Below are positions 2,934 through 9,191 of a stretch of DNA of 64,000 nucleotides, piece by piece. The position numbers were made by a program, and so were the translations under genes. The stretch's first letter is position 1. Every line of letters begins with the position of its first letter. The notes beneath the pieces are model-generated. The model worked only from the letters and a program-made list of their open reading frames with translations, was not told the DNA's origin and ran no database searches. Origin of the DNA: Emticicia aquatilis (GTDB lineage Bacteria; Bacteroidota; Bacteroidia; Cytophagales; Spirosomataceae); contig NZ_BMKK01000001.1 of the NCBI RefSeq assembly GCF_014644295.1, positions 62,001 to 126,000 on the forward strand. The letters run 5' to 3'.

Positions 2934-3097
2934 GGGTACAATAGTTTCAACAAAGTTCGTTCAAGCACTATTTCTAATCAATCCATGCTTCCTTGTAATT
3001 TTACCTGTCTTCCATACAGGTAAACCTGTATTTTGCCCCAAAACTTTGGAAAATATTAGTTTTTAACCTTACTTAATGTGATTTTTATAAAGATTTG

Positions 3098-5077
3098 ATG
3101 AAGAAAATATTTTTCATATCACTGTTGTTGATTACTAATAATGCTTTTGCGGGTCGTCCTGTGATAGATAGCTTGTTGAAAAATGTAAAATATTTTTCGA
3201 TTCAAAAACCTTCGTTTGGAAGAGATACTTTGTTAATAAATACCTTGTGGGAATTGGGTTATTACGCTATTTATTTCAGAGAAAAAAACGACAAATTGCT
3301 ATTGGATTCACTCCAAAGATTGACCAACCGCACGCAATGGCAAGCAGGAAAAGGTCTATTTTTGATTAATAAATCTTTCTACGATTCGTATGTGCGAAAC
3401 GATTTTTCGATTGGACTGAAAGATGCCTTAAAAGCCAAAGAAATTTTGAGTAAAACCAATAATTTCCATGCTTTGGCTTATGCAAATCTGCGTATTTCTT
3501 CGATAATGCTCTGGAATTTAGGTAATGAAAAAAAAGACAAATTCAGCATTGCGGGCATACAAGCGGCTAAAGAAATGATAGTTTTGGGTGAAAGAATACA
3601 CGATTTCGATATTCAATGTCAAGGGTATATTTATGCTGCCAATCATTATAATTTCAATAATGATTCGAAAAATGCCACACAAAACCTTGAAAAAGCCAAC
3701 GAAATTATCAGCAAACACAAAGTTGGTTATTTAACCGAAAATCTATTTTATGGAACGTACGGCGTGTTGTTTTCCTACACCAATCAATTTGAAAAAGCAC
3801 TCGAATATTGGGAAAAGTGTTTGAAAATTGCCACGCCACAAAATGATTTCTACACGCTATCGTCGATGAATCGGCTAAAAGCTGATTATTATTATCAATA
3901 TGCCAAAAAAAAAGATTTAGATGCAGCCTTGAAACTTGCCCAAGAATCATTCAAATATGCTACTCAATTTGGGGTTCTAAAATTCATCGCCACTGCCCAA
4001 CGAGAATTATACATAATCAATCGACTCAAAGGCAATAATGCCATTGCTTTGCTTTATTTAGAGCAGTTTTGGAAAAACAATGACTCGCTCAGCAGAGAAA
4101 AAATACAGAAAGTTTATGCCGATTATGAGTTGGCAACCAAAGAATCGCAAATTCAAAAGTTAGAAAACCTACGATTAATCAAAGAAGCAGAAGGCAAAGC
4201 CCAAGAGCTTGAATACCTGAAAACGTTGCAAGTCAAGAATGATTCGTTGATTCTTCAAAAAAATGAGAAAGTGGCTTCTGATTATCAATTGATTTTGCGA
4301 GAATCGGAAGTAAAAAAACTCGAAAACGAGAAGCTACAAACCGAAGCCAATCGTCAGAAAATGATACGTAATCTACTGTTTATCAGTCTTTTATTGGGAG
4401 CTTCACTATTAGGATATTTCTTCAAAAATAATCAAAAGTTAAAAGCGAAAAATCGAGAAATTGAAGAAGCATTGCTGAAAGGACAAACCATCGAACGCAA
4501 GCGAGTTGCGACCGAACTTCACGATAATCTTTCGGCTAAAATCTCAGGCGTAAAGTGGCGATTAGAAGCAATTCAGCCCGATTTTAGAATAGAAAAACAA
4601 CGACAAATCTATGAATCTTCGGTCAATGCTCTTTCTGAAATCTATACTGATGTTAGGCTAATTTCACATAATTTACTACCGATTGAACTCGAAACTAAAG
4701 GACTGACAGTTGCCGTAGAAAACTTAGTTACAGAGCTAAATTCGCTCGAAAAAACTAAATTTTCTACAAAAATCATTGAAAACATTGGGAGATTTGATAA
4801 CAGAATCGAATATGAATTGTTCAGTATTATTCTCGAATTATCGAATAATATCTTGAAACATTCAGGTGCGACAGATGCCTTAATATCTCTACAAAAGACC
4901 GATAATCAACTACAATTATTAGTAAAAGACAACGGCAAAGGTTTCGACACCAACAAAAATCATAGCGGAATAGGCATCAAAAATTTATATTCACGAATAG
5001 AAGCTCTTCAAGGTTTTCTGAAAATCGAAAATACAGCAGGTTTACAAGTAAAAATCCAAATTCCAGTTATATCATAG
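3098..5077 (+). CDS. TPR-containing sensor histidine kinase, NarX/LiaS-type (HisKA_3)
   Basis: 659 residues. I chose ATG 3098 over TTG 3095 because it opens a clean signal peptide (MKKIFFISLLLITNNAFA). The periplasmic part is a set of TPR-like helices (about residues 30-330), then a long coiled coil (about 345-425), one membrane helix (about 427-447), and a HisKA_3 dimerisation domain with the H-box ELHDN (His475). The HATPase_c domain is at the C-terminus (DNGKGFDT, then GIGIKNLYSR). This architecture is common in Bacteroidota and signals to NarL/FixJ regulators. The only such regulator nearby is the convergent gene at 8535-9191, on the far side of the protease pair, so that is its probable partner. 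The ligand is unknown. Confidence 0.9.
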   Translation: MKKIFFISLLLITNNAFAGRPVIDSLLKNVKYFSIQKPSFGRDTLLINTLWELGYYAIYFREKNDKLLLDSLQRLTNRTQWQAGKGLFLINKSFYDSYVRNDFSIGLKDALKAKEILSKTNNFHALAYANLRISSIMLWNLGNEKKDKFSIAGIQAAKEMIVLGERIHDFDIQCQGYIYAANHYNFNNDSKNATQNLEKANEIISKHKVGYLTENLFYGTYGVLFSYTNQFEKALEYWEKCLKIATPQNDFYTLSSMNRLKADYYYQYAKKKDLDAALKLAQESFKYATQFGVLKFIATAQRELYIINRLKGNNAIALLYLEQFWKNNDSLSREKIQKVYADYELATKESQIQKLENLRLIKEAEGKAQELEYLKTLQVKNDSLILQKNEKVASDYQLILRESEVKKLENEKLQTEANRQKMIRNLLFISLLLGASLLGYFFKNNQKLKAKNREIEEALLKGQTIERKRVATELHDNLSAKISGVKWRLEAIQPDFRIEKQRQIYESSVNALSEIYTDVRLISHNLLPIELETKGLTVAVENLVTELNSLEKTKFSTKIIENIGRFDNRIEYELFSIILELSNNILKHSGATDALISLQKTDNQLQLLVKDNGKGFDTNKNHSGIGIKNLYSRIEALQGFLKIENTAGLQVKIQIPVIS

Positions 5078-5238: not shown

Positions 5239-5943
5239 ATGAAAAACTTCTTCTTCAAGTTGTATTGCTGTGTAGGCATTTTGTTGACTTCAAATCTCAT
5301 GGCTCAAAATAGCAGTTACGATTTATTGAACCCATCAATGAAGCAAATTGCTTCGCCAGAAAGTGAGCAAAACTGGATAAAATTTAAAACTTCGGCCAAA
5401 ATCAACCCCGAAACGATTTTTGAAGACCATAAAGTCGCTTTTGAACTATCAGCTTTTGATAAGATGGTGGTCAATAAAACCTTCGTCGATGATATTGGTT
5501 TTACACATCGCAATTATCAGCAATATTTTAAAGGAATTCTGATTGATGGCGAATCAATAAATGTTCATACCAATAAAAATGGTGAAACGTATGCCGCCAC
5601 TGGTCGAATTTTGAAAGGAATAAATGTAGAAATAACCCCAAAAATTACTGCACAACAAGCGATTGAAATAGCCTTAAAGTATGTCAATGCCAAAGAATAT
5701 ATGTGGCAGAATACTTTTTGGGAAAATGAATTGAAAAAGAAAAATAACGACCCAAAGGCAACCTATTACCCTTCTCCAACTTTAGTGATTAAAGAAAAAC
5801 GAAACTACAACCAAGGCTTAGGGATTTTCAATTTGGTTTATCGAATGGATATTGCCTCATCTTCTCCGCACTATTCACAACGAATATTCGTAGATGCTCA
5901 TTCGGGCGAAATCATTGATAAATACCCTCTTGAATCTAATTGA
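5239..5943 (+). CDS. Secreted stand-alone FTP/PepSY propeptide-like protein
   Basis: 234 residues from ATG 5239; a longer TTG frame from 5215 would put eight residues before the signal peptide (MKNFFFKLYCCVGILLTSNLMAQ). The body resembles the N-terminal propeptide of thermolysin/fungalysin peptidases: an FTP segment (FTHRNYQQYFKGILIDGE, about residues 95-115) and a PepSY-like half ending in QRIFVDAHSGEIIDKYP. In ordinary M4 enzymes this propeptide is in the same chain as the protease, where it acts as foldase and inhibitor. Here the frame stops cleanly (TGA) 27 bp before the M4 peptidase gene, which has its own signal peptide. It may therefore act in trans as chaperone or inhibitor (inference). 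Confidence 0.8.
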   Translation: MKNFFFKLYCCVGILLTSNLMAQNSSYDLLNPSMKQIASPESEQNWIKFKTSAKINPETIFEDHKVAFELSAFDKMVVNKTFVDDIGFTHRNYQQYFKGILIDGESINVHTNKNGETYAATGRILKGINVEITPKITAQQAIEIALKYVNAKEYMWQNTFWENELKKKNNDPKATYYPSPTLVIKEKRNYNQGLGIFNLVYRMDIASSSPHYSQRIFVDAHSGEIIDKYPLESN

Positions 5944-5970
5944 TTTCTCCACCTTGAAATTTCGACAATC

Positions 5971-8538
5971 ATGAAAAAAATATACTTACTTTCGTTATTG
6001 ACAACATTTTTAATAGCCTTCCAAGCGAAATCACAGTGCGTCAATTTCAGACAATATCAACCTGCAGGCTGGGACAACAGCATTGTTATTTCGGCTATTA
6101 CGGGTACAAATACCTCAGAAGCAGCCTATTATTTCAACCAAACGCTTTATTTAGACATTGCAATCCAAAACAATGGTACATGTAATGCTTCTACAACCGT
6201 AAAGGCAAATGTATTTTTAGATGGTGTTTTCAAGACTACCCTTACTTATCCTATTTTGAATTCGGGCTTTTTTAGTTCTATTTCAGATTTCATGATTTCG
6301 GGTTCGCTTGGTGTTGGCACTCATACGATTCAAGTCGATATTGATAGCCCAAATATTATTGCAGAATCCAACGAATCAGATAACACTTTTACCCGAACAT
6401 TTACAGTACAACAAGGGGCTTGTGTAGGAGCAACTGCAACGACTATTTTCAATGGAAATCAAGCTTTCAACACCGAGCATTACCAAGATACACAATTTAG
6501 ACTTTACGACCAATGTCAAACTGCCGTTAATAAAATCCGAGATTGGAATAGCACTACAACTGTATCAAATCCTATCGAAATTACAAGCGGAAATAACTCA
6601 TGGACAACTCAAACTCAAAAATTTGGTGCTTCAGTTATGTGGGCTACAAAGTCTGCTTATAATTATTTCAATAGTATTCATTCAAGAAGTTCCTATAATA
6701 ATGCCAACGGCGTATTGGATGGCTATGTAAATGCTGTCTTTTGGAGTGGTTCTGCGTATTATACAGATAATGCATCTATGTCAAACTCTGGATTAATGAA
6801 AGTTGGGCTTAGTTCAACAGGTACACTTACCAATAGCTATGGAACATTAGATGTTATCGGGCATGAATATGCCCATGCTGTAACGGCTTCATCGGCGGCT
6901 TTGGTTTATCAAAACGAATCAGGGGCTTTGAATGAATCATTCAGTGATATTTTTGGAGAATGTATTGAAAACTATACCTTAGGAAGTAATGATTGGCTAA
7001 TGGGAGCAAATCGTACGAGTGGAGCAATACGAAGTATGAGTAACCCGAATACATACAACGACCCAGATACGTATTTAGGTACAAATTGGATTACCGACCC
7101 CAACGTAGATTTAGGCGGCGTTCATACCAATAGTGGCGTTCAGAATTATTGGTTTTATCTGATTACAAATGGCGGAATTGGCACAAATGATAACGGAAAT
7201 CCTTTCAATATCACAGGGCTTGGCATCACCAAAGCACGTGCTATTGCTTATCGTACGCTGACAGTCAATTTAGTTGGGCAGCCCAATGCGACCTACTCAG
7301 TGGCTCGAAATGCCTCTATTCAATCAGCCATAGATTTATATGGAGCAAACTCAACCGAAGTAAATACCGTAACCAATGCTTGGTGTGCGGTTGGTATCGG
7401 CAATGCACCTTCGGCGGTTACAGTTGCGGGAGGTGGTACTTTCTGTAATTCAACAACCATTACAGCATCGGGGGCTTCGGGGGCAACCATTTATTTTCAA
7501 GGAACAAATAGCAGCGGTACTTCCATGGCTAATCCTGGTACAACCCAAACAATTACATCGTCTGGTACCTATTATTTTCGGGCTATCAATGGTTGCGGTT
7601 GGGGAACGGTTGGAAGCGTAACTGTTACAATTGTACCAATGCCAGCGGCTGTTTCGGTGGCAGGCAGTGGAACTTTTTGTAATTCAACAACCATTACGGC
7701 ATCAGGTGGTGCGGGCGGAACAATCTATTTTCAAGGAACAATCCCGAACGGAACTTTCTTTGGTTCAACTTCATTGAGTCAAGTTCCTACAAGTTCAGGA
7801 ACTTACTATTTTAGGTCATATAATGCCACTTGTGGTTGGGGAACACAAGGAAGTGCAATCGTAACTATCCAAAATACTCCTGCTGCCGTTTCAATTACAG
7901 GAAGCGGAACGGTCTGTAACTCAACCACCATTACGGCGTCGGGAGGTGCGGGTGGAACAATTTATTGGCAAGGAACAACCAGTAATGGCACTTCAACCGC
8001 TACACCATCTACGAGCCAAGCCATTACGGCATCAGGAACTTATTATTTTAGGTCATATAATGCTACTTGTGGTTGGGGGCCACAAGGAAGTACAACAATT
8101 ACGATTATTACAAGTCCTGCTGCTGTAAACGTTAGTGGAGGCGGAACAATTTGCGGGAACTCAACCACACTGAGTGCCAATGGTGGAAACGGCGGAACTG
8201 TTTATTGGCAAGGAACAAATAGTAATGGAACATCTACAACAACGCCAAGCATTAGTCAAGTCGTTTCGGCATCAGGGACATACTATTTCAGAGCCAATAA
8301 TGGCTGTGGATGGGGAGCGGCAGGCAGTGCAACGGTTACGATTGTACCAACGAGTTTGAGTCTCAACGGTTCGGCAACTAATGGACTACAAAAAGCCGTA
8401 AATACTATTTCATCTAATCAAAGTATTATTTCGGATAGAAATGTAAGTTATGAAGCAGGAAAAAGTATCGAATTGGTGGGTGTGTTTTCGGCAGCCAATG
8501 GGAGTGTTTTTAGAGCAGAAATAAAGGCTTGTAACTAA
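5971..8538 (+). CDS. Secreted M4-family (thermolysin-like) metallopeptidase with CARDB and Ig-like repeats
   Basis: 855 residues with signal peptide MKKIYLLSLLTTFLIAFQAKS. A CARDB-like beta domain (about residues 45-148) occupies the place of the usual propeptide. The catalytic M4 domain (about 155-485) shows HEYAH (298-302), the third zinc ligand Glu322 in NESFSD, and the acid/base His385 in GGVHTNSG, so it should be active. Four tandem Ig-like repeats of about 78 residues follow, each with CNSTTITASGG and SGTYYFR motifs. A short C-terminal domain ends FRAEIKACN, resembling the coat-hanger/GCx-type C-termini of secreted Bacteroidota proteins. Its stop overlaps the stop of the convergent response regulator. 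It probably degrades extracellular protein. Confidence 0.9.
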   Translation: MKKIYLLSLLTTFLIAFQAKSQCVNFRQYQPAGWDNSIVISAITGTNTSEAAYYFNQTLYLDIAIQNNGTCNASTTVKANVFLDGVFKTTLTYPILNSGFFSSISDFMISGSLGVGTHTIQVDIDSPNIIAESNESDNTFTRTFTVQQGACVGATATTIFNGNQAFNTEHYQDTQFRLYDQCQTAVNKIRDWNSTTTVSNPIEITSGNNSWTTQTQKFGASVMWATKSAYNYFNSIHSRSSYNNANGVLDGYVNAVFWSGSAYYTDNASMSNSGLMKVGLSSTGTLTNSYGTLDVIGHEYAHAVTASSAALVYQNESGALNESFSDIFGECIENYTLGSNDWLMGANRTSGAIRSMSNPNTYNDPDTYLGTNWITDPNVDLGGVHTNSGVQNYWFYLITNGGIGTNDNGNPFNITGLGITKARAIAYRTLTVNLVGQPNATYSVARNASIQSAIDLYGANSTEVNTVTNAWCAVGIGNAPSAVTVAGGGTFCNSTTITASGASGATIYFQGTNSSGTSMANPGTTQTITSSGTYYFRAINGCGWGTVGSVTVTIVPMPAAVSVAGSGTFCNSTTITASGGAGGTIYFQGTIPNGTFFGSTSLSQVPTSSGTYYFRSYNATCGWGTQGSAIVTIQNTPAAVSITGSGTVCNSTTITASGGAGGTIYWQGTTSNGTSTATPSTSQAITASGTYYFRSYNATCGWGPQGSTTITIITSPAAVNVSGGGTICGNSTTLSANGGNGGTVYWQGTNSNGTSTTTPSISQVVSASGTYYFRANNGCGWGAAGSATVTIVPTSLSLNGSATNGLQKAVNTISSNQSIISDRNVSYEAGKSIELVGVFSAANGSVFRAEIKACN
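7408..8347 (+). repeat. Four tandem ~235-bp coding repeats in the M4 peptidase
   Basis: Four in-frame repeats start near 7408, 7641, 7879 and 8115. Each encodes an Ig-like domain with the pattern PAAVxVxGxGTxC, TTITASGGxGGTIYxQGT, SGTYYFR and CGWGxxGSxTVTI. The middle copies are very similar in DNA as well, so unequal recombination could change the copy number. Confidence 0.85.
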
Positions 8539-9191
8539 AGCGATTCAACTAAACCATTTTTGATAGCAAATTTCACCAAACCTATTGAATTTTTAATACC
8601 CAATTTCTTCAAAATATTATGGCGGTGAGTTTCTACCGTAGCGGGGCTGAGGAAAAGTTTTTCAGCAATTTCATTGGTCGATAACTCTTGAGCAATCAAT
8701 TTTATGATTTCAATTTCTCGATTACTCAAGTTCTCTACTTTTTCTTCTATGGTTTCATTCACTAAATCAGAAACCTGTTTATTTCGATTCAATAATTCAA
8801 AAACTACCGATTCGGAATAGTATTTTTTGCCCGAAGTTACCATTTTTAGAGCTTCTTCAAACTCTGCTTTGCCAGCTTTTTTCATGATATATCCCGAAAC
8901 TCCCGCCTGAAATGCTTCTTGTATCGTCTGAGCATCTTCCGAAACCGTCAGTAAAATCACTTTTACCTTCGGAAAACGTTGCCTAATCTGATAGGTTAGT
9001 TCAATACCATTCATTTCGGGCATCGAAAAATCAGATAATACGATTTCAACATCTGTGTGCTGTTGGAGCATCTTCAAAACCTCTGCCCCATTGCTACATA
9101 TACTTACAATCTCATAGTTAGGCATTGTCGAAATCAATATTTCGATACTTTCCAAAATAAACTGATGGTCATCGGCAATGATTAATTTCAT
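8535..9191 (-). CDS. NarL/FixJ-family response regulator
   Basis: 218 residues. The receiver domain has the acidic pair near the N-terminus (IIADDHQ), the phospho-acceptor Asp54 in SDFSMPEMNG and the conserved Lys of the IMKKAGK segment. A LuxR-type HTH follows (NLSNREIEIIKLIAQ, then TVETHRHNILKKLG). It is the probable partner of the HisKA_3 kinase at 3098. It is convergent with the M4 peptidase gene and shares 4 bp at the stop codons. Regulation of the protease pair is an attractive guess, but no binding site is visible. Confidence 0.93.
   Translation of the reverse strand: MKLIIADDHQFILESIEILISTMPNYEIVSICSNGAEVLKMLQQHTDVEIVLSDFSMPEMNGIELTYQIRQRFPKVKVILLTVSEDAQTIQEAFQAGVSGYIMKKAGKAEFEEALKMVTSGKKYYSESVVFELLNRNKQVSDLVNETIEEKVENLSNREIEIIKLIAQELSTNEIAEKLFLSPATVETHRHNILKKLGIKNSIGLVKFAIKNGLVESL

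Follow-up and report, generated by a model that had tools for sequence, protein, structure and literature searches.

The family M4 metallopeptidases are classed as cis zymogens, with propeptides regarded as intramolecular chaperones. In the window considered here (a stretch of 64,000 nucleotides of the Emticicia aquatilis contig NZ_BMKK01000001.1, positions 62,001 to 126,000), an FTP/PepSY propeptide and an M4 peptidase are encoded by two adjacent genes. A propeptide split off at the exact boundary of the pro and mature parts, with its conservation kept, constitutes an uncommon natural test of whether covalent linkage is needed for folding assistance and inhibition, and also bears on what self-cleavage adds.

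Organisation of the propeptide and M4 peptidase genes

The locus incorporates the following features (positions in the window, strand, description):

3095..5077, +, flanking histidine kinase (HK; context)
5239..5943, +, separate propeptide protein of 234 aa with signal peptide, FTP and PepSY (ATG 5239, stop TGA 5941-5943)
5239..5307, +, signal peptide of the propeptide protein (approximate; read from the sequence by eye, ...SNLMAQ)
5461..5607, +, FTP domain, residues 75-123 (Pfam PF07504, E=1.4e-12, above cut-off)
5641..5934, +, PepSY domain (PF03413, E=1.3e-5, above cut-off; the Pfam match covers residues 135-152)
5941..6420, +, in-frame insert of 480 nt relative to the cis relatives (TGA, 27-nt spacer, ATG, signal peptide and CARDB)
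5971..8538, +, M4 metallopeptidase gene, 855 aa (ATG 5971 to TAA 8538)
5971..6033, +, signal peptide of the M4 protein (approximate; read from the sequence by eye, ...FQAKSQ)
6112..6396, +, CARDB domain, residues 48-142 (PF07705, E=1.9e-9)
6433..7398, +, thermolysin-type catalytic domain, residues 155-476 (PF01447 and PF02868)
6862..6876, +, HEYAH zinc motif (among the invariant columns)
7411..8388, +, about four Ig-like repeats in the M4 protein, which match GhpA, the grappling hook protein of Aureispira (9flp, residues 504-764, 1.4e-9)
8389..8535, +, GCX_COOH (3-coathanger stack) domain, C-terminal in the M4 protein (NCBIfam NF045639, E=1.9e-13)
8535..9191, -, flanking LuxR-type response regulator (RR; context)

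The initial annotation had described a separate secreted FTP/PepSY protein with an M4 peptidase beginning 27 bp further on, the latter having a signal peptide of its own, CARDB instead of a propeptide, and intact active-site residues. This description agrees with the two ORFs (5239-5943 and 5971-8538), which are separated by positions 5944-5970 (27 bp), with their Pfam domains, with the signal-like start of the M4 protein, and with the active-site columns detailed below. FTP/PepSY and M4 are not joined in one open frame as they are in a cis zymogen: the propeptide frame is closed by a TGA (5941-5943), its sole terminator before the M4 ORF, after which a separate ATG and signal peptide follow. 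Both ORFs are read in one frame, and what separates them is this TGA plus nine codons.

The 855-aa ORF is a member of peptidase family M4, on the basis of the Pfam cut-offs, the zinc and catalytic residues and the thermolysin fold. It matches Peptidase_M4 (PF01447; residues 155-305, E=7.4e-14) and Peptidase_M4_C (PF02868; residues 309-476, E=1.4e-45), and retains 14/14 columns that are invariant across 70 aligned sequences, including HExxH, the Glu and the active-site His. The third-ligand Glu, in GALNESFSD, and the His, in GGVHTNSG, both lie downstream of HEYAH. Structural comparison of the M4 domain model with thermolysin (4tnl) gave a Z of 40.3 and an rmsd of 1.8 over 302 residues. Drift of the M4 domain, in which 11/90 conserved columns differ, was considered and dropped, as the strongest differences (NAVF and TDNAS) are common to the closest fused relatives.

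Position and origin of the split

The closest M4 relatives found (G222, G307, G387 and G463, with 58 %, 57 %, 54 % and 48 % identity, respectively) are all fused and lack CARDB. At the junction of the aligned fused relatives (L175-L178), PLESN (PMESN in G222 and SLEASG in G463) is followed by Cys and then by ...TIFNG, SIFNG or TIWNG. The window propeptide ends in ...DKYPLESN, followed by the TGA, and homology restarts at Cys151 (6421) of the M4 ORF: CVGATATTIFNG. Since the same PLESN/Cys junction flanks an in-frame segment of 480 nt, the split represents the insertion of a domain where the pro and mature parts meet and not a frameshift. It had initially been anticipated that fused homologues, together with a frameshift at this site, would speak against a trans-acting propeptide. 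The homologues are indeed fused, whereas in place of a frameshift there is a domain-sized insertion that keeps the frame and supplies a new start codon and a signal peptide.

On the simplest reading of this arrangement, the insert would be the 5' portion of a different gene for a secreted protein, and the TGA either arrived with it or arose from the ancestral codon for Cys (TGT or TGC) by mutation to TGA. The GC3 is uniform over the propeptide, insert and M4 regions (0.30-0.35). A donor of the signal-CARDB segment was not found, with the genome giving just a weak 38 % partial match, and nothing beyond an 8-mer was observed as a target-site duplication at the cassette ends. CARDB is likewise absent between propeptide and M4 in the fused relatives that carry extra sequence there (L090, L118 and L128). 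Separate propeptide and M4 trees gave no supported placement of the window sequence in either, and promoter and terminator scans of the locus gave results at chance level.

Conservation and predicted structure of the propeptide

The 234-aa protein is a member of the FTP/PepSY M4 propeptide family, with both domains and the positions conserved in cis propeptides, and the alignment of its PepSY domain to cis propeptides extends to residue about 232. Against a profile built without it (leave-one-out), it scores 204.6 bits, placing it 19th of 31, with the others ranging from 121 to 249, and it departs at 0/15 columns conserved in at least 85 % of the relatives. When propeptide identity was regressed on M4 identity across 2628 fused-protein pairs, which are not independent of one another, the window propeptide showed a mean residual of +0.7 points (sd 5.1), which places it 48th among 74 when these are ordered starting with the most diverged. 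The term 'relic', as initially applied to the propeptide, is thus not borne out, considering the mid-range profile score, the 15/15 conserved positions and the lack of excess divergence relative to the M4 domain. The absence of decay would equally be expected from a recent split.

The propeptide model matches the propeptide chain of MCP-02 (3nqz_A; Foldseek, 1.3e-8) and also 3nqy_A, and the titles of 3nqy and 3nqz refer to an autoprocessed enzyme or complex, i.e. a cut propeptide crystallised with its enzyme. As a device to model propeptide and M4 together, a read-through chain (residues 1-724, with the TGA as Trp) was modelled using an alignment of 69 fused homologues. The pLDDT is mostly 90 or more in the propeptide and mostly over 90 in the M4 domain, except for the loop at 504-514, while CARDB was not confidently modelled and about 150 residues are unplaced. 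The pTM of 0.77 despite these unplaced residues suggests that propeptide and M4 are confidently placed relative to each other, in a modelled docking that is driven by the fused-homologue alignment. The N-terminal CARDB of the M4 protein could obstruct docking of the propeptide.

Distribution of separately encoded M4 propeptides

The host genome (6.7 Mb) contains two further M4 genes, both with a cis propeptide. Surveys for other splits used one genome per species, with weak matches being missed and counts applying to the matches listed. No other intact stand-alone propeptide adjoining an M4 gene was found among the matches listed from 222 genomes of the family. Among the approximately 150 best propeptide matches listed from 396 genomes of the class, all were located in long frames, with the exception of that of the window, those at contig edges and those in disrupted genes, while the 44 matches listed from 392 genomes of the phylum included one more short frame (G723). 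Furthermore, of the 80 M4 loci that ranked best across about 85,000 species, all those complete enough to judge are fused. The initial view that the two-gene arrangement is unusual, with M4 propeptides otherwise occurring in cis, is supported by the lack of a second intact case among the family, class and phylum matches listed. Likewise, the open-access literature, of which the coverage was incomplete, yielded no account of an M4 propeptide with a gene of its own. A clean and real conversion of a cis zymogen to two genes has apparently taken place in one genome only.

Several split genes were rejected as further cases. Those in the family (G158, G178, G062, G094, G083 and G163; L130-L135) have stops or frame changes within PepSY, the linker or M4, and the positions of these breaks, along with M4 halves that lack a signal peptide, suggest that the genes are disrupted or misassembled, being either pseudogenes or assembly errors. 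An in-frame PepSY stop is found at a nearly identical point in two different genera among these genes. The short frames G224 and G475 are at contig edges, G467 has a stop within PepSY, and the frames of G549 and G723 end inside the M4 domain or close to its beginning, G723 being a truncated fused gene in which the start of the M4 domain is still present. Tandem M4 zymogen genes are frequent in the Bacteroidota, with some overlapping or a few bp apart (L058, L070, L073, L084, L087, L088, L097, L099, L101 and L112).

A putative two-gene zymogen and alternative explanations

The most economical role for the detached propeptide would be that of a trans-acting foldase or inhibitor. On the evidence of the sequence, the locus probably encodes a two-gene M4 zymogen, in which the free propeptide would associate in trans with the M4 domain of the adjacent gene product, within the periplasm, and serve as both foldase and inhibitor. 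The relative placement of propeptide and M4 in the read-through model lends this action indirect support. As the comparison with fused relatives shows, an ancestral single-chain gene with the order signal-FTP-PepSY-M4 gained a stop, start, signal peptide and CARDB segment exactly at the pro/mature boundary. Judging from the 27 bp spacing, the propeptide and M4 genes are probably carried on one transcript, and their signal peptides suggest that the two products would be exported separately via Sec. In the periplasm, the free propeptide may bind the M4 catalytic domain in trans, aid its folding and block the active site, in the same manner as cis propeptides, and the M4 protein would then depart to the cell surface, with the propeptide left behind or digested. 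As the M4 protein alone has a C-terminal sorting-type domain, the propeptide would be expected to stay in the periplasm rather than diffuse with the enzyme. The ancestral pro/mature junction probably lies near the processing site, and since the stop is located at this junction, the propeptide C-terminus would be about where self-cleavage would leave it. The thermolysin prosequence works in trans in vitro. For the S8 protease CspB, co-expression of the prodomain in trans restores folding and inhibits (PMC3567191).

A more specific form of this proposal is put forward tentatively, as quite possible: that the propeptide is obligatory, shares an operon with its enzyme and works exclusively in trans, assisting folding and inhibiting the enzyme within the periplasm, and that it arose by a start-signal-CARDB insertion at the processing site. 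If this is true, zymogen control would move from self-cleavage to stoichiometry and separate export.

Alternatively, the split may be recent and the propeptide gene a leftover that has not yet decayed, with the M4 protein folding alone or aided by CARDB. The restriction to a single genome, the lack of the cassette at the same site in three congeners and the new N-terminal domain in the former place of the propeptide are in keeping with this explanation. It is nevertheless considered unlikely, as the key propeptide positions are fully kept without relative excess divergence, the start, signal peptide and frame are all intact, and the similar GC3 of the insert and its neighbours bears no mark of very recent foreign DNA. 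It is quite improbable that the propeptide is now chiefly an inhibitor or immunity protein, rather than a foldase, directed against this enzyme or against the genome's two remaining M4 enzymes. Such a role has precedents in M4 operons with a separate inhibitor (protealysin-emfourin; PMC9505478) and in the stand-alone propeptide-like inhibitors of subtilases (SUB1-ProM; PMC6993865), and two cis M4 genes are present in the same genome. However, foldase and inhibitor are not separable from sequence alone, and the adjacency and shared ancestral junction favour the neighbouring M4 as partner. Finally, although the ORFs share a reading frame that is interrupted by just one TGA and the nine codons after it, it is highly improbable that one chain is made, whether through read-through of the TGA or because the TGA is an error of sequencing, considering that a shared frame has a one-in-three chance, that a whole signal peptide and new ATG would sit mid-chain, and that the internal signal peptide and CARDB are both missing from the relatives.

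Comparison with known systems

The proposed two-gene zymogen resembles the M4 zymogens thermolysin, vibriolysin MCP-02 and pseudolysin in its FTP/PepSY propeptide, thermolysin fold and complete zinc site, and in the location of the propeptide immediately upstream, with the boundary positioned as in the fused relatives. It differs in that the propeptide is a separate product and that the M4 protein starts with a signal peptide of its own and carries CARDB near the N-terminus. In SUB1-ProM, TgMIC5, POIA1, yeast PBI and crammer, a propeptide fold is similarly encoded by its own gene, sometimes beside the protease. These belong to S8 or C1 proteases and accompany enzymes that retain a cis propeptide, whereas the adjoining enzyme at this locus is without one. 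The lipase-specific foldases (Lif) of Pseudomonas and Burkholderia are separate, membrane-anchored periplasmic steric chaperones encoded beside an exported enzyme. The putative chaperone gene described here likewise adjoins that of an exported enzyme, while both the fold and the enzyme are unrelated to those of the Lif systems. In the protealysin-emfourin operon, too, the gene of an M4 peptidase adjoins that of a small partner protein, with emfourin being a separate inhibitor protein and protealysin described as intracellular (PMC9505478). In contrast, the partner in the window, which matches FTP/PepSY and has a signal peptide, corresponds to the propeptide of the enzyme itself. A possible use of a detached propeptide is the production of M4 enzymes by co-expression.

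Genomic context

In three congeners, the orthologous convergent HK and RR are approximately 10 bp apart, with no genes between them (RR identity of 62-64 %; orthology of HK and RR denotes reciprocal best matches among the loci compared). As the cassette is missing at this site, the M4 genes have been either gained in this lineage or lost in the others. Convergent HK/LuxR-type regulator pairs (L167-L172) are present in several copies in the genus, most about 10 bp apart, and among the pairs read, genes are inserted between the partners only in the window copy. A fused M4 gene of Emticicia oligotrophica (L139; G103:C4) is located on a 34-kb plasmid (NC_018745.1), and plasmid carriage represents a possible route for the spread of M4 genes in the genus. 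Positions 3-2933 of the window, on the minus strand, encode a long repetitive secreted protein of at least 977 aa, which continues past the window edge and which, by eye, appears to consist of parallel beta-helix repeats.
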